The translations under genes were made by a program, and so were the position numbers. The notes under the pieces are model-generated. The model did not search any database and had not been told where the DNA came from. It saw only the letters and a program-made list of their open reading frames with translations. Shown in pieces: positions 1,842 to 8,742 of a stretch of 8,842 nt of DNA (positions are counted from its first letter, which is position 1; every line of letters starts with the position of its first letter). The DNA is from Clostridia bacterium (GTDB taxonomy: Bacteria > Bacillota_A > Clostridia > Oscillospirales > CAG-272). Location: the NCBI GenBank assembly GCA_017935805.1, contig JAGBGV010000148.1, forward strand, positions 1 through 8,842. Reading direction: 5' to 3'.

Positions 1842-1897
1842 TGAATGATGTTAATTCCCGAAATTGTTTTTACATATTACATATACTAACGGTTGAC

Positions 1898-1926
1898 GGA
1901 AACTTTCCAGAGCCCGATTGACAATC
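1898..1926. promoter_or_regulatory. Two perfect 11-bp palindromes at the operon promoter (candidate operator)
   Basis: GGAAACTTTCC (1898-1908) and GATTGACAATC (1916-1926) are both perfect 5-1-5 inverted repeats with centres 18 bp apart. The second contains the whole -35 hexamer of the promoter at 1918-1946. The operon's last gene encodes an XRE repressor-like protein, so these could be its autoregulatory sites. The two palindromes differ in sequence, so at most one may be its target. Binding is inferred. Confidence 0.45.
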
Positions 1927-1946
1927 AACAGATAATATGCTATATT
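1918..1946 (+). promoter_or_regulatory. sigma-A promoter of the leader-ATPase-XRE operon
   Basis: Consensus -35 TTGACA (1918-1923), a 17-bp spacer and -10 TATATT (1941-1946). Transcription should start near 1953, giving a leader of about 325 nt before the ATPase start at 2278. The -35 is embedded in a perfect palindrome. Confidence 0.88.
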
Positions 1947-1957
1947 GTTTGTGTAAC

Positions 1958-1978
1958 CAAATAACAAATTCAGCCAAA
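1958..1978 (+). repeat. Leader direct repeat, copy 1
   Basis: Its partner is at 2191-2211; 17 of 21 bases match, including an identical 13-base core AAATTCAGCCAAA. Each copy lies just upstream of a strong ribosome site and a short ORF, so the start region of the operon seems to have been duplicated within the leader. Confidence 0.7.
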
Positions 1979-1991
1979 GGAGGCGTTTATT

Positions 1992-2045
1992 ATGATGAAC
2001 ACTTATATTTATCGGATGTCATATGTATCGCCTGCAGTATGCTGA
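1992..2045 (+). CDS. Putative 17-aa leader peptide
   Basis: ATG at 1992 is preceded by AAAGGAGG (1976-1983) with an eight-base gap, one of the best ribosome sites in the window. The product would be MMNTYIYRMSYVSPAVC, ending at TGA 2043-2045. It contains three Tyr and three Met in 17 residues and has no signal sequence. Codons 7-10 overlap the segment 2011-2019 that can pair with the 5' arm of the terminator at 2071-2097. That arrangement suggests a control peptide whose translation sets RNA folding, rather than a functional protein. No known leader peptide is recognised. Translation is strongly suggested by the ribosome site but unproven. Confidence 0.6.
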   Translation: MMNTYIYRMSYVSPAVC

Positions 2046-2146
2046 ACGCAAGGTTAATATAGTGTTAAATGCACATCCGATCTCGGGTGTGTTTTTTGTT
2101 TGCCTGAAACATCTTTCTTTGGTGAACGTGTAGCTTGATGCACCCG
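2011..2146 (+). promoter_or_regulatory. Candidate transcription attenuator with antiterminator pairings
   Basis: Segment 2011-2019 (ATCGGATGT), inside the leader ORF, is perfectly complementary over 9 nt to ACATCCGAT at 2073-2081, the 5' arm of terminator 1. If they pair, the freed 3' arm of terminator 1 (CGGGTG, 2084-2089) is complementary to CACCCG (2141-2146), the 5' arm of terminator 2, with two further wobble pairs. One switch could therefore disable both terminators. The complementarity is seen directly; regulation, and the signal sensed by the leader ribosome, are inferred. Confidence 0.6.
2071..2097 (+). terminator. Leader terminator 1
   Basis: CACATCCG pairs with CGGGTGTG around the loop ATCT, giving eight pairs with one U-G wobble, followed by TTTTTTG. 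It lies 26 nt after the leader stop codon and 180 nt before the ATPase start, so it would stop most transcripts from the 1918 promoter unless relieved. Confidence 0.8.
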
Positions 2147-2166
2147 CAGGGATGCTTTTTGTTTTT
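2140..2166 (+). terminator. Leader terminator 2 (weaker)
   Basis: GCACCC pairs with GGGATGC (one bulged A) around the loop GCA, followed by TTTTTGTTTTT. The stem has only six pairs, so termination may be partial. Its 5' arm can instead pair with the 3' arm of terminator 1. Confidence 0.55.
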
Positions 2167-2190
2167 CGTGGGAAGCACTCGAATATAAGT

Positions 2191-2211
2191 CAAACGGAAA
2201 ATTCAGCCAAA
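2191..2211 (+). repeat. Leader direct repeat, copy 2
   Basis: Second copy of the 1958-1978 repeat with the identical core AAATTCAGCCAAA at 2199-2211. It again lies directly upstream of a strong ribosome site (GAAAGGAG, 2214-2221). Confidence 0.7.
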
Positions 2212-2231
2212 CCGAAAGGAGAATTTTTACT

Positions 2232-2306
2232 ATGATTGCAATCACAACGTTTTTGAAAAATGAAAGAGGGGATGACTATGAAGAGACTGGCACACTTTTT
2301 GCGTAA
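2232..2306 (+). CDS. Putative 24-aa ORF overlapping the ATPase start
   Basis: ATG at 2232 follows GAAAGGAG (2214-2221) at a ten-base gap. The 24-residue product begins MIAITTFLKNERGDD and stops at TAA 2304-2306, in a different frame from the ATPase gene, which starts inside it at 2278 (29-nt overlap). A ribosome translating this ORF would pass through the ATPase ribosome site GAGGGG (2266-2271), so translational coupling is plausible. The upstream direct repeat echoes the first leader ORF. No homology is recognised and function is unknown. It could also be a remnant of a duplicated gene start. Confidence 0.4.
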   Translation: MIAITTFLKNERGDDYEETGTLFA

Positions 2307-4080
2307 CATGGATAACGATACGGCAACCTACAAAGAAATGTACGAAGGCGGGCTAACGGTATATGATCCCGATATGCCGGACGCACCTCCATACGGAGAT
2401 TATGAACCAATATATTACAATAATGAGATAGGATATGAAATTACGCATACACACAAACTCGCGCAGGATAAACCCACAATAACCATCAGAATACCGCTTT
2501 CAAAACTCCCATTAAAAGATTTTGGTTGGACACCGGCCGCCTTTTGTTACAATAGATTCCGATCTTACATGGATCGACTGAACGAGGAGTTATACAATCG
2601 TTCCCGACCCGATAATGAAAACGGAAAGTATATATTATCCGAACACACAAGCGTGGTAATACCCAACAATTACTCGTTTTTTTCTCAATGTCTACACAAA
2701 TGGTATGAAAACACATCCGGTAAGAATGTTTGGCTTCTTAAAGCTCCAAATGCACCGGGAATGGAATTGATGTTGCATTTCAGGATCCAAGTTCAACTGC
2801 CACGCCGTAAACTGCGCAAAACTATACAGATGCTATGTCGTGATCTGCCGGATGCCGTGGATCGGTTTATTGAAGAATTCGATTATATCAGGTTAAACCG
2901 TGCTCTGGAACTCGCCGAAAAGCAGGCTGCAATCCGTACTTGGCTGAAGGATAGCGATTACTGTGCTTTTGTTGCAAACGGCAGTATTTTACCGCGCGCC
3001 AAAGGAACTGATATTCCTATGCTTGATGCGATACCGTTCAGATCCACACCTGATGATGAAATTGAGGTCTTTGGCGTAAAAGGTATGGGAATCAAAAAAG
3101 GCGTCACCGTCATTACTGGTGGTGGTTATTCGGGCAAATCCACTCTGCTTGATGCCATTTCTGCAGGAATCTACGACCACGTGCTTGGTGATGGGCGCGA
3201 GCTGTGCCTTACAGACGAAAGCGCCGTTACCATATCCGCAGAGGACGGACGAAGCGTAAAGCATGTCAACATTTCACCTTTTATCAAGTGGCTTCCGGGC
3301 GGTGATGCAAGGGATTTCTCCACAGATCATGCGTCAGGTTCCACTTCCCAGGCAGCAAACATCATGGAAACCGTGGACTGTGGCGCAAAGCTTCTGCTTA
3401 TAGATGAGGACAGAAGTGCCACAAACTTTATGATCCGCGACAAAATGATGAAGGAGCTGATTGAAAAAGAGCCAATCACGCCTTTCACCGATCGGGTAAA
3501 CGAGCTATACAAAAGGGAAGGTGTTTCTACGATTCTTGTAATCGGTGGTAGCGGAGAGTATCTTTCCGTTGCTGACAAGATCTACATGATGGAGGATTAC
3601 ATCATTCACGATGTAACGGAAAAATCAAAGGGAATCTGCACTTCTCACGGTGTTATGTCGGAGATTCCCACAGAAGCAGACTGGACACAAAACCGGATTC
3701 TGTATTCCGATAACTTCTCGTCTTATCCGGAAGGAAGCGGTAGTGAAAGATTAGAGGTGTCCGACATGGGATTTATCCGGATCGGTGACGAGTGGATTGA
3801 TGCTCGTGGAATGCATGATATTGTGTCAAAACGGCAACTTGATGCCCTCGGATTTATGCTACGGCTACTTATGGTATCCAACAAGGATCACTACATTGAT
3901 CTTACTCAACGAATTGATGAACTGTACGAAAAAATCACAGCAGAGGGCATGGATATTCTCTATTCGTCCTTTTTCACAACTACAGAGCGATTCCTCAATC
4001 TGCCGCGAAAACAGGAACTTCTGGCACTGGTCAACCGTATGCGAAAGATCAATATGGCGAAAGGCGGTGATGTGATATGA
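2278..4080 (+). CDS. Predicted ATPase of the ABC class (PF09818/COG3044 type)
   Basis: The protein has 600 residues. A Walker A GGGYSGKST lies at 281-289, a signature-like ASGSTSQAAN at 352-361, and a Walker B LLLIDEDRSATN at 372-383. This order and spacing, with a long N-terminal region before the P-loop, are characteristic of PF09818. No membrane segments are visible, so it is a soluble ATPase and not a transporter subunit. The bacterial family role is not established; one structurally studied relative I recall is MRB1590, an RNA-binding trypanosome RNA-editing factor, so nucleic-acid binding is possible. ATG 2278 is chosen because GAGGGG sits six bases upstream; an in-frame ATG at 2260 has no ribosome site. 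It follows an attenuator-like leader and overlaps the XRE gene by ATGA. The family call is strong; the substrate is unknown. Confidence 0.92.
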   Translation: MKRLAHFLRNMDNDTATYKEMYEGGLTVYDPDMPDAPPYGDYEPIYYNNEIGYEITHTHKLAQDKPTITIRIPLSKLPLKDFGWTPAAFCYNRFRSYMDRLNEELYNRSRPDNENGKYILSEHTSVVIPNNYSFFSQCLHKWYENTSGKNVWLLKAPNAPGMELMLHFRIQVQLPRRKLRKTIQMLCRDLPDAVDRFIEEFDYIRLNRALELAEKQAAIRTWLKDSDYCAFVANGSILPRAKGTDIPMLDAIPFRSTPDDEIEVFGVKGMGIKKGVTVITGGGYSGKSTLLDAISAGIYDHVLGDGRELCLTDESAVTISAEDGRSVKHVNISPFIKWLPGGDARDFSTDHASGSTSQAANIMETVDCGAKLLLIDEDRSATNFMIRDKMMKELIEKEPITPFTDRVNELYKREGVSTILVIGGSGEYLSVADKIYMMEDYIIHDVTEKSKGICTSHGVMSEIPTEADWTQNRILYSDNFSSYPEGSGSERLEVSDMGFIRIGDEWIDARGMHDIVSKRQLDALGFMLRLLMVSNKDHYIDLTQRIDELYEKITAEGMDILYSSFFTTTERFLNLPRKQELLALVNRMRKINMAKGGDVI

Positions 4081-4310
4081 GTACGATGACTTATCATATA
4101 ACGATTGCGGACAAAATCAAAGCATACCGCAACGATAATAATCTGTCGCTAAAAGAATTCGGTAAGCTGATAGGAGTTTCTGCTCAAGCGGTCTGGAAGT
4201 GGGAGCAGAACGCTTGTTGCCCCGATATCATTATGCTGCCACACCTCGCTAAGATCATGAAATGCACTACCGACGATTTCTTTGAACAATATGAGGTTAA
4301 TAATAGCTAA
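4077..4310 (+). CDS. Small XRE-family helix-turn-helix regulator
   Basis: The product has 77 residues and is almost entirely one Cro/CI-type helix-turn-helix domain (about residues 9-69): IADKIKAYRNDNNLSLKEFG, then KLIGVSAQAVWKWEQNACCP with the recognition helix, then HLAKIMKCTTDDFF. Its ATG lies within the last codons of the ATPase gene (ATGA overlap), so the two are co-transcribed and probably translationally coupled. A start at 4086 would remove only three residues. There is no sensor domain, so it likely binds DNA as a dimer. Autoregulation at the palindromes around 1898-1926 is the simplest guess. It could equally be a remnant of a mobile element's immunity repressor. The fold is confident; the target is inferred. 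Confidence 0.9.
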   Translation: MSTMTYHITIADKIKAYRNDNNLSLKEFGKLIGVSAQAVWKWEQNACCPDIIMLPHLAKIMKCTTDDFFEQYEVNNS

Positions 4311-4352
4311 CAGGCTTTTTTAACACGCGCCCTTGGGGTCCTTTTCCATCAT

Positions 4353-4390
4353 CAAAAAACAAAAATGAGACACACAAAAGTGCATCTCAT
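4353..4390 (-). terminator. Intrinsic terminator of repeat unit B (minus strand)
   Basis: Minus strand: ATGAGATGCAC pairs with GTGTGTCTCAT around TTTT, followed by TTTTTGTTTTTT. Two wobble pairs are compatible only with the minus transcript. The plus strand also has a T run after the stem, so it may stop the XRE operon weakly too. Confidence 0.75.
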
Positions 4391-4398
4391 TTTTGATC

Positions 4399-4417
4399 AT
4401 GCGGGTAAAAGGACTTG
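4399..4417 (-). pseudogene. 19-nt copy of the tRNA-Leu 3' end
   Basis: ATGCGGGTAAAAGGACTTG is identical to 4547-4565, the last 17 nt of the intact tRNA-Leu plus two flanking bases. The match stops abruptly inside the T-loop. It is either a decayed tandem tRNA copy or an attachment-site-like duplication. The order tRNA end, terminator, repeat is kept in both units. Confidence 0.7.
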
Positions 4418-4490
4418 CCCGTCTGCGGACGGAGCGGTGGCGCGGAAAAACCCTCCCCCGGAGGCTTTTTTAACACGCGCCCTTCAATTC
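4418..4490. repeat. Extragenic repeat unit C (most complete block)
   Basis: It contains the stem-loop CCGTCTGCGGACGG, a short GC-rich stretch, then the inverted repeat CCTCCCCCGGAGG (4452-4464), six Ts and AACACGCGCCCTT. Compared with unit A (TGTCCACTGGACA), two stem pairs differ by compensatory changes (T-A to C-G and G-C to C-G). That suggests the hairpin itself is conserved. With its flanking A and T runs it could also terminate transcription in either direction. Confidence 0.65.
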
Positions 4491-4505
4491 CTTTCTGAAT
4501 CTAAT

Positions 4506-4539
4506 AGAACAAAAAGCAGATATGCTAATGCATACCTGC
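4506..4539 (-). terminator. Terminator of the tRNA-Leu gene
   Basis: Minus strand: GCAGGTATGC pairs with GCATATCTGC around ATTA (ten pairs, one G-U wobble), then TTTTTGTTC. It begins ten bases after the tRNA 3' end. Confidence 0.88.
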
Positions 4540-4548
4540 TTTTGTTAT

Positions 4549-4631
4549 GCGGGTAAAAGGACTTGAACCTTCACCGGATCGCTCCGACTAGAACCTGAAT
4601 CTAGCGCGTCTGCCAATTCCGCCATACCCGC
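4549..4631 (-). tRNA. tRNA-Leu, anticodon CAG
   Basis: The gene is 83 nt, class II. The acceptor stem GCGGGTA/TACCCGC pairs fully. The anticodon stem CTAGA/TCTAG encloses the loop TTCAGGT, giving anticodon CAG (reads CUG). A long variable arm CGGA-GCGA-TCCG and the T-arm GAAGG-TTCAAGT-CCTTT are present. CCA is not encoded. It has its own promoter (4715-4743) and terminator, with a leader of about 75 nt that includes the inverted repeat ACTCAC/GTGAGT. Its 3' end is partly copied at 4399-4417, which marks this locus as a likely recombination site. Confidence 0.95.
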
Positions 4632-7760: not shown

Positions 7761-8423
7761 GTGAAAAGTAAATACGTTTATGAAATAAGCTCTGCATATA
7801 CAGACCGTCCTTGTAAGTTTGAGCATTTCAGATTATCGGATAGGTATCCGAAATACGAAAATCTGATATACGATTTGAATTTTGTTGCGAAAAAGCCTAT
7901 GACAGCTATGGAAAAATCAATACTGTCGGAGCTTTTTCCTGCTGACAGCTTAGAAGAGGACGTGAGTCCGGATATAAACGTATTACGGGATGCTGCAGAG
8001 AAAAGTGTGGCGAGAAAGGTGTTCTTAAATGGCTTTCGCCAAGAGCATTTTGATTATATTGCGCCATTTATTAAAGACAAAGTAGAAGTGCTGTATCTGT
8101 TCAAATGCCCGAAGATAAAAGATCTTTCTGCTTTATCGGAGTTTTCAAGATTGGAATGCGTTTTAATGACCTGGAATAATTCACTTGAAAGCTTGTGGGA
8201 TATGAGGAATAACAAAGAGTTAAGAGCCCTTTCATTTAAAAATATTTCTAAGCTGGCTCACATCGAAACTTTGAAGGACTCGAATTTGGAGTACGTCTCT
8301 TTCGATAGCATAGATAATAGTAGCAACAGAAAGCAAATGCTGTTTGACAAAGCGGTTTTTGACGAGATGCCGAAATTAAAGCATTTAAGGCTTGTTTACA
8401 GCAGAGTTTTCGTAGATTATTAA
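7761..8423 (+). CDS. Leucine-rich-repeat-like protein of unknown function
   Basis: The protein has 220 residues. The start is GTG 7761, preceded by AAAGGCGGAG; the parallel ATG start of the truncated copy at 8498 supports it. The first 85 residues are charged and unrecognised. From about 108 on, leucine-rich-like units of roughly 22-25 residues appear: VEVLYLFKCPKIKDLSALSE, LECVLMTWNNSLESLWDM, LRALSFKNISKLAHIETL, LEYVSFDSIDN and LKHLRLVYSRV. The protein ends abruptly after the last unit, so it may be shorter than its relatives. No signal peptide or membrane segment is seen, suggesting a cytoplasmic protein-binding scaffold. Base composition is more AT-rich than in murC, which hints at accessory origin. 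No clear promoter was found. A truncated second copy follows, so this is a small paralogous family. Function unknown. Confidence 0.75.
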   Translation: MKSKYVYEISSAYTDRPCKFEHFRLSDRYPKYENLIYDLNFVAKKPMTAMEKSILSELFPADSLEEDVSPDINVLRDAAEKSVARKVFLNGFRQEHFDYIAPFIKDKVEVLYLFKCPKIKDLSALSEFSRLECVLMTWNNSLESLWDMRNNKELRALSFKNISKLAHIETLKDSNLEYVSFDSIDNSSNRKQMLFDKAVFDEMPKLKHLRLVYSRVFVDY

Positions 8424-8458: not shown

Positions 8459-8568
8459 GATTAATAGATGCAAAGATATTTTTTGAAAGGCAAATACATG
8501 AAAATCGAACACGTTTATAAAATAGGCTCTGCATCACCGACTATATACTGTGAGCACATATTGCTTTT
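8433..8568 (+). repeat. Degenerate tandem copy of the 7697-7832 region
   Basis: Both stretches read in order: AAAAGACCTCACCCGGG with TCTTTTT, a short spacer, GATATTTTT, GAAAGG, a start codon, and then a related coding start (ACGTTTAT, AAATA, GCTCTGCAT). The duplication covers the murC terminator, the spacer and the beginning of the LRR-like gene. Confidence 0.8.
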
Positions 8569-8608
8569 TTTGAGATCCTTCGACTTCACTTCGTTACGCT
8601 CAGGATGA
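8498..8608 (+). pseudogene. Truncated second copy of the LRR-like gene, interrupted by a MITE-like element
   Basis: ATG 8498 has GAAAGG at 8485-8490. The reading begins MKIEHVYKIGSASPTIYCEH, which parallels MKSKYVYEISSAYTDRPCKF and then EHF of the upstream gene. About 25 codons in, the frame enters the inverted-repeat element at 8573 and stops at TGA 8606-8608 (36 codons in all). No LRR region follows beyond the element, so the rest of the gene has been lost. It is either a dead paralog or a partial tandem duplication that never contained the whole gene. Confidence 0.75.
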
Positions 8609-8700
8609 CGTGACATGACGTTAGTTGTTATGCTCCAAGGATGACAAGGAGTATTATTTGTCATCCTGAGCGAAGGGTACCACCAGTAGTCGAAGGATCT
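8573..8700. mobile_element. MITE-like inverted-repeat element, 128 bp
   Basis: Perfect 13-bp terminal inverted repeats: AGATCCTTCGACT (8573-8585) and AGTCGAAGGATCT (8688-8700). A second perfect 12-bp pair lies inside: GCTCAGGATGAC (8598-8609) and GTCATCCTGAGC (8660-8671). If the ends are set at GATCC...GGATC, a 3-bp direct repeat TGA flanks it. No ORF lies inside, so it would need a transposase in trans. The string GTCATCCTGAGCGAAGG is, from memory, a widespread bacterial extragenic repeat. It sits in the truncated LRR copy. Confidence 0.8.
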
Positions 8701-8742
8701 GATCATTTTTCTTGCTTTACCAGGCATCAGTCTGTAAACAAC

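Follow-up and report, generated by a model that had tools for sequence, protein, structure and literature searches.

The window, by which we mean the whole 8,842-nt stretch of Clostridia bacterium DNA analyzed here, carries a two-gene operon encoding an ABC-class ATPase and an XRE-type regulator, preceded by a promoter and a leader (Table 1). Structural matches of the ATPase are PDB entries 5d6a, 4yj1, 4yix, and 4yiy. Relatives of PF09818 include the trypanosome RNA-editing factor MRB1590, and others occur in Vibrio and Staphylococcus. According to the accessible part of PMC4538832, MRB1590 binds RNA. No bacterial role for PF09818 was found in the literature searched.

A second short open reading frame (ORF) with its own Shine-Dalgarno (SD) sequence overlaps the start of the ATPase gene in another frame, and it might couple translation to that of the ATPase. 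A crude scan of 29 relatives (L002-L030; loci and their leaders are given here by L numbers) detected a short ORF close to the start of the ATPase gene in 11. The counterpart in L006 is MMTAITTLLKNERGDAHEEIKK, and L007, L009, and L010 have similar ones. The stretch AAATTCAGCCAAA occurs ahead of both short ORFs of the window, at 1966-1978 and 2199-2211. Degenerate repeats related to the tRNA-Leu 3' flank bracket the ATPase-XRE operon (1722-1817, 4315-4417, and 4432-4565), an arrangement that would fit insertion or duplication of the operon next to the tRNA-Leu gene. Farther along, positions 7761-8423 hold a 220-residue ORF with no Pfam match, and a second, cut-off copy of it apparently starts at about 8499. 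An inverted-repeat element at 8560-8710 (CATCCTGAGCGAAGG / CCTTCG...), which we take to be of a kind scattered in bacterial genomes, resembles a stretch upstream of the leader in L068.

Table 1. Features of the window and of the leader that precedes the ATPase-XRE operon
Feature	Positions	Strand	Remarks
25-nt promoter box (relatives: AACCAACGGTTGACAAAAACTTTCC)	1884-1908	+	9 nt upstream of -35; candidate XRE operator
Promoter TTGACA-17-TATATT, sigma-70 type	1918-1946	+	Strong; 11/12 matches, TG ahead of -10
Putative transcription start	about 1953	+	
uORF Shine-Dalgarno AGGAGG	1978-1983	+	Kept in the leader alignment; 1981-1983 form part of the P1 5' arm
P1 hairpin (anti-antiterminator)	1981-2033	+	1981-1985 x 2029-2033, 1991-1995 x 2019-2023
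uORF, 17 codons, MMNTYIYRMSYVSPAVC, then stop	1992-2045	+	Read from the sequence
Antiterminator word ATCGGATGT within the uORF	2011-2019	+	Complement of 2073-2081
Terminator 1 (T1) GCACATCCGATCTCGGGTGTGT, then T run	2071-2092	+	Called by terminator scan
T1 5' arm ACATCCGAT	2073-2081	+	Read from the sequence
Likely second antiterminator, T1 3' arm CGGGTG x T2 5' arm CACCCG	2084-2089 x 2141-2146	+	Re-pairing tests and folding
Terminator 2 (T2) GCACCCGCAGGGATGC, then TTTTTG	2140-2155	+	Imperfect in the window
Second short ORF MIAITTFLKNERGDDYEETGTLFA, then stop, with its own SD	2232-2306	+	Overlaps ATPase start, other frame
PF09818 ABC-class ATPase with MRB1590-type C-terminal domain	2278-4080	+	PF09818 338.3 bits, PF21117 48.9 bits
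XRE-type helix-turn-helix regulator	4077-4310	+	PF01381; start overlaps ATPase stop
tRNA-Leu, anticodon CAG	4548-4631	minus	

A sequence-only reading of this DNA had described an upstream ORF (uORF) of 17 codons with a ribosome site and two serial terminators, all of which we recovered at the same positions. The two complementarities that it had pointed out, between the word inside the uORF and the T1 5' arm and between the T1 3' arm and the T2 5' arm, are exact. T2 of the window is imperfect, with one bulge or C-A mismatch, and neither of two terminator scans called it; a GCACCC-type T2 was called by terminator scan in 47 of 64 leaders. The uORF is also involved in a hairpin, P1, that pairs its SD and AUG with its later part and overlaps the end of the word, which is thereby partly buried. 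The fold of 1953-2280 was of ordinary stability (z of -0.51, and -1.61 for 1953-2100). We therefore dropped the single-sequence fold as proof of a leader, and the case rests on comparison among relatives. Searching positions 1900-2290 against Rfam 15 gave no family or riboswitch match, T-box included, up to an E value of 5, and identity with a leader or riboswitch known to Rfam was rejected.

A scan with the ATPase of the window yielded 36 loci, whose upstream DNA was then read. The leader was recognized by its pattern in 24 of them, and L001 was added later, giving 25. The shared layout comprises an SD, an AUG, CTTATATTTATCGGATG in most, an SD-complementary stretch, a stop, T1, and, in most, T2. 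The same layout in ATPase relatives and at further sites found with a covariance model (R1, built from alignment A1 of the window and 23 loci) rules out a feature private to the window. Of the 30 locus genomes searched, 25 had R1 matches (E up to 0.1); at E up to 0.001, matches were obtained in 31/394 genomes of one order, 5/391 of the class, and 27/146 of one family, these samples overlapping. In the family sample, PF09818 was present in 31 of the 146 genomes (E up to 1e-60), and the leader (at least 38 bits) stood at 18 of the 20 best-matching PF09818 loci (L125-L144, identity of at least 60%), with the proviso that 6 of these 18 leaders had gone into R1. Such recurrence ahead of PF09818 genes across Clostridia speaks against chance as the source of the leader. 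Of the two exceptions, L137 ends at a contig edge before the leader and L144 has a variant leader made of a uORF and one hairpin terminator. The other 10 PF09818 loci of the family gave weak matches in 3 cases (25 to 27 bits) and none in 7. No match was obtained when plasmid and phage sequences were searched for copies of the leader. The weak model sites L084, L087, and L088 (33 to 39 bits) look like chance terminators and were rejected; L064-L066, two G021 sites without a locus, G287:C34, and G802:C32 were left outside the examination. A leader subtype in L082, L090, L102, L103, and L107 has a strong hairpin over SD and AUG, and no second terminator was found in it; it precedes PF09818 genes and, in L082, a Lsa ABC-F gene.

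To evaluate the pairings, we exchanged helix arms between leaders and compared own with permuted energies in 5000 permutations. Of 67 model matches, 64 leaders were tested, leaving aside L104, with its unaligned T1, and the weak secondary matches L069 and L107. The pairing of the uORF with the T1 5' arm had an own energy of -13.8 kcal/mol versus -12.3 (standard deviation [SD of permutations], 0.2) after permutation, and P1 had -18.2 versus -15.2 kcal/mol (0.31); no permutation out of 5000 reached the own value for either helix (n = 64). For the T1 3' arm and the T2 5' arm, the energies were -13.1 versus -12.2 (0.14), again with 0/5000 (n = 47), and 67/5000 when only the 20 distinct arm combinations were used. 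Thinning to less than 70% identity (36 leaders, 23 for T1:T2) left all three helices at 0/5000; thinning to less than 60% (9 leaders, 5 for T1:T2) gave 9 for uORF:T1, 1 for P1, and 816 for T1:T2 out of 5000. With correction for composition, the respective counts were 0, 0, and 84 of 5000. Taken singly, the uORF:T1 arms are less distinctive, since on average 28% of foreign arms with a different 8-mer match or beat the own arm, and in L097 the uORF fits its own T1 arm slightly less well than it fits consensus arms. Paired changes were seen for uORF:T1 in L096 (CGAATG/CATTCG), L076 (CGGACG/CGTCCG), L078 (CGGATA/TATCCG), L074, and L077, and for T1:T2 in L071, L074, L076, L077, L106, and L108; T1:T2 has end mismatches in L039, L041, L043, L068, L079, and L099. 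The T1:T2 test omits L058, L105, L091, and L092, in which the T2 picked was not of GCACCC type (L058 does have such a T2, closer to T1), and stem-edge errors make it rate L049, L050, L069, L078, and L063 worse than they appear by eye.

Column covariation of the antiterminator among 24 close leaders showed no excess over shuffles. This test was uninformative because the columns barely vary among close leaders, hence our use of the wider set. An internal pair of T1 is U.G in 24/24 aligned leaders and in 61/64 of the wider set. The U fits an A of the uORF and the G fits a C of T2, so that keeping U.G inside T1 would follow from a need of the two arms to match different partners outside it. Of the exceptions, the T2 arm is altered to match in L078 and L106, and L103 has no T2; against such a three-way constraint, the U.G pair persists in other leaders without T2. 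Judged by own versus re-paired arms, P1 and the uORF:T1 antiterminator are well supported as real conserved pairings, and conservation of the T1:T2 pairing is likely. Covariation among leaders, to which the sequence-only reading had looked for confirmation, thus bears out its uORF:T1 pairing, and also P1, which it had not included, and lends weaker support to its T1:T2 pairing. That reading had also staked itself on homologous leaders keeping the ORF and the complementarity, and they largely do: the uORF crosses the word and ends before T1 in 62/64 leaders, and 58/64 have a word with 5 or 6 of 6 positions complementary to T1.

We then classified 70 model sites by the gene that follows. PF09818 genes follow 51 of them, of which 26 (the window and 25 loci) had been preselected via PF09818. 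The 44 sites without such preselection precede 25 PF09818 genes, 6 ABC exporter genes, 2 Lsa-type ABC-F genes, 2 XRE genes, and 1 GNAT gene (at a weak site); 8 precede nothing recognized, two of these sites having less than 450 nt of DNA left. The leader is thus not restricted to PF09818 operons, the only setting in which it had first been noticed. Model scores are 98 and 43 bits at the ABC-F sites. Against the NCBIfam Lsa model, the two ABC-F genes score 703, below the cutoff of 750, and 762, above it; both pass the general ribosomal-protection cutoff of NCBIfam, and the nearest solved chain to the first is Lsa(A). The exporter sites score 59, 43, 38, 37, 36, and 32 bits, and L092 lacks a clear word; the exporter group is less certain because these matches are mostly weak. 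At two of the exporter loci, the leader precedes a pair of adjoining half-transporter genes. Reciprocally, 16 Lsa-like ABC-F loci were found in the 146 family genomes and 2 of them had a model match in their flanks, so this leader is one of several used by such genes. Several Lsa-like ABC-F genes among L114-L123 seem, by eye, to have different and very short uORFs (MYID or MSK, then stop).

To relate the pairings to ribosome position, we folded 24 leaders with the T1 3' arm not yet made and scored the antiterminator as formed at a probability of at least 0.5. It formed in 11/24 leaders without a ribosome (0.54 in the window), in 24/24 with a ribosome at the start codon, in 12/24 at codon 3, in none at codon 5, 8, or 11, as follows from the geometry, and in 21/24 at the last codon. 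The earlier reading had proposed that a ribosome on the early Tyr codons would mask the word and favor termination and that the word would be free with a ribosome at the end of the uORF or with none. Masking and the late position agree with these predictions; the ribosome-free state does so in only 11/24 leaders, P1 having been overlooked, and this number also implies that P1 is not a tight lock everywhere. At equilibrium, T1 prevails without a ribosome (mean of 0.94) and stays ahead of the antiterminator in 20/24 leaders with a ribosome at the start (means of 0.76 versus 0.22). The model therefore needs a kinetic advantage, and timing must matter. When the T1 5' arm is engaged, T1:T2 pairing of at least 0.5 is predicted in 47/47 leaders, against 15/47 otherwise; the window values are 0.98 with the arm engaged and 0.06 with T1 allowed. 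With the arm engaged, T2 is open in the window, yet it closes at 0.5 or more at equilibrium in 17/47 leaders. In the 24 aligned leaders, the CGGA of the word starts 19 or 21 nt past the A of the start codon, just beyond the edge of an initiating ribosome, whose toeprint is placed at 16 in the part of PMC9226507 available. In the exporter leaders L063, L100, L106, and L108, the word lies 39 to 55 nt past the start.

These data suggest the following switch. In an untroubled cell, the uORF would be translated, or its SD and AUG would be shut inside P1, and the word would be masked; T1 would then fold and stop transcription, and T2 would catch what leaks through. A ribosome arrested at the uORF start by inhibitors of the pleuromutilin, lincosamide, or streptogramin A type would keep P1 from forming, and the word just past this ribosome would capture the T1 5' arm. 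In turn, the released T1 3' arm would capture the T2 5' arm, both terminators would fail, and the ATPase-XRE operon would be made. The accessible portions of PMC9226507 and PMC10201436 describe stalling of initiating ribosomes by lincomycin and retapamulin and, for this drug class, an action that follows initiation and depends little on sequence; such low dependence would suit a leader whose peptide is free. We consider it probable that the leader is a ribosome-sensing, drug-responsive attenuator of the vmlR/cplR type with two terminators that open in turn, like dominoes. Its parts and pairings are read from sequence comparison; arrest at the start codon, the class of drug, induction, and the sign of the switch are suggested by the geometry, by the modeled folds, and by the resistance-type genes that share the leader. 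The uORF-dependent, two-stage attenuator proposed earlier for this PF09818 operon is thereby supported, with P1 and the start-codon state as the elements that it had missed.

The uORF itself bears on what is sensed. As frame controls for the 62/64 count, the +2 frame does likewise in 30/64 leaders and the +1 frame in none, the latter being trivial because 57/64 uORFs begin with ATGA. In the 58 leaders with a complementary word, the word is read as CGG ATG, xCG GAT G, or xxC GGA TG in 24, 27, and 7 cases, respectively. Start codons were picked mechanically, and the L091 match begins at an inner ATG, a likely start with a ribosome site lying 21 nt farther upstream. Since the uORF is kept while the word falls in all three frames, we conclude that the RNA and the position of the ribosome matter, rather than the peptide or its Tyr codons. 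Arrest that depends on the peptide, of the macrolide or phenicol type known from erm and msr leaders and placed late in the uORF or at its stop, is accordingly an unlikely explanation. It would account for the stable length of the uORF (median of 17 codons, mostly 16 to 19) and position of its stop (30 to 35 nt from the word in the middle half of the leaders), for the freeing of the word by a ribosome at the last codon, for the longer uORFs of exporter leaders, and for a common N-terminal Tyr-Ile/Leu. However, the peptide is not conserved as the length is, no common peptide spans the three frames, no RLR-type arrest motif occurs in the uORF peptides compared, and a ribosome at the start codon frees the word more often (24/24) than one at the last codon.

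Another possibility is that the leader is switched by a protein or ligand, such as the XRE product or the ATPase binding to P1 or the terminators. The XRE gene in the operon and the RNA binding of MRB1590 (PMC4538832, as far as available) would fit, but 13 of the 25 leader-bearing loci have no XRE match (the cut locus L029 among them), such a switch would not need a uORF kept in 62/64 leaders, and the promoter offers a better candidate XRE site on DNA; we regard this explanation as very improbable. At a fixed spacing of 9 nt, the 25-nt promoter box has 19 to 25 of 25 matches in 12/12 XRE-bearing loci with enough readable upstream DNA (the window included; L014 is cut), compared with at most 18/25 in the 22/22 loci counted as lacking XRE, which include L018 and L020 with distant XRE matches (30 to 32% identity) farther down. 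Because the box consensus was read from these XRE-bearing loci, which are related to one another, it is only a lead. By this comparison, XRE probably controls the promoter while the leader controls elongation.

The earlier reading had pointed to the early Tyr codons as the place where a ribosome is held, and a ribosome waiting there could sense the supply of Tyr-tRNA. Tyr is indeed found at codon 5 in 25/25 close-relative leaders, the window included, and the window uORF has three Tyr codons. Yet 11/64 leaders have no Tyr at residues 3 to 8, the RNA word falls in any of three frames, and a ribosome on codon 5 masks the word, so that starvation would switch the operon off. In addition, the recognized downstream genes are not amino acid genes, and the combination of a cognate-codon run with pathway genes was not found; we give tyrosine attenuation hardly any credence. 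Equally little credence goes to a constitutive double terminator or ordinary 5' untranslated region with complementarities as by-products of similar terminators: T1 does resemble T2 and T1:T2 covariation is modest, but uORF:T1 and P1 covary and the leader also precedes unrelated resistance-type genes.

A ribosome-sensing, drug-responsive attenuator has known counterparts, described here as far as the available portions of the cited papers go. The leader shares with the vmlR/cplR kind a uORF with a ribosome site before an intrinsic terminator, an anti-antiterminator (P1) overlapping the uORF, and an antiterminator exclusive with T1 and backed by covariation. A further trait of that kind, control of resistance or ribosome-protection genes, is seen at the related Lsa ABC-F and exporter sites (2 and 6 of the 70, the exporter matches mostly weak) and would be a prediction for the window gene. 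In the leader of the Bacillus subtilis ABC-F gene vmlR, the uORF likewise lies in a 5' anti-antiterminator hairpin, followed by an antiterminator and an intrinsic terminator, and read-through results when drugs of the lincomycin type hold a ribosome at the uORF; of three uORF sequence variants tested, two were fully functional and one less so (PMC9226507). In contrast to vmlR, with its 3-codon uORF and one terminator, the leaders described here mostly have 16 to 19 codons, the word inside the uORF, two terminators, and a downstream gene of a different family. The Clostridioides difficile cplR leader also has a 5' hairpin that sequesters the uORF and a terminator/antiterminator switch, and its induction was tested with retapamulin and lincomycin; it differs from the window leader by its MRI uORF and its single terminator, which also hides the SD of the gene (PMC10201436). 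Transcription attenuation with two adjacent terminators and a short uORF is known from erm(K) of Bacillus licheniformis (cited in PMC4335068), which differs in its RLR-type peptide and its macrolide resistance methylase gene. The two exporter loci with paired half-transporters recall B. subtilis bmrB-bmrCD, a uORF-dependent, lincomycin-inducible paired ABC exporter whose 53-codon uORF, unlike ours, contains the terminator (PMC4191407). In Listeria, the attenuator rli80, with a 14-codon RLR uORF and one terminator in contrast to the window leader, led to HflXr, an unexpected resistance factor that acts on the ribosome and belongs to neither ABC-F nor Erm (PMC6310831). Ribosome-sensing attenuators, including two-terminator ones such as erm(K), are therefore already known. 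In agreement with the earlier reading, no leader of this type before PF09818 was found in print in the literature searched, mostly at the abstract level. As far as that literature shows, it is new that such a leader precedes PF09818 and is shared with Lsa ABC-F and exporter genes, and so are the likely terminator domino and the frame-free uORF.

That the leader is common to some resistance-type genes suggests that blocked ribosomes are what turns on the ATPase in these gut Clostridia. By guilt by association, we predict that it works on, or in response to, blocked ribosomes. More tentatively, and as a possibility that we rate below even, the Clostridia PF09818 ATPases may be a new antibiotic-induced rescue or resistance factor, distinct from ABC-F, that acts on ribosomes or RNA under a portable two-terminator leader that senses start arrest, is common to some Lsa ABC-F and multidrug exporter genes of related genomes, and follows an RNA logic independent of the peptide. 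The leader exemplifies attenuation by a conserved uORF with a largely free peptide, and the likely two-terminator domino should tighten repression. The covariance model can be used to find further genes of this kind. Together, an anatomy that reads ribosome arrest and the company in which the leader is found provide a testable prediction for PF09818, as rli80 did for HflXr.
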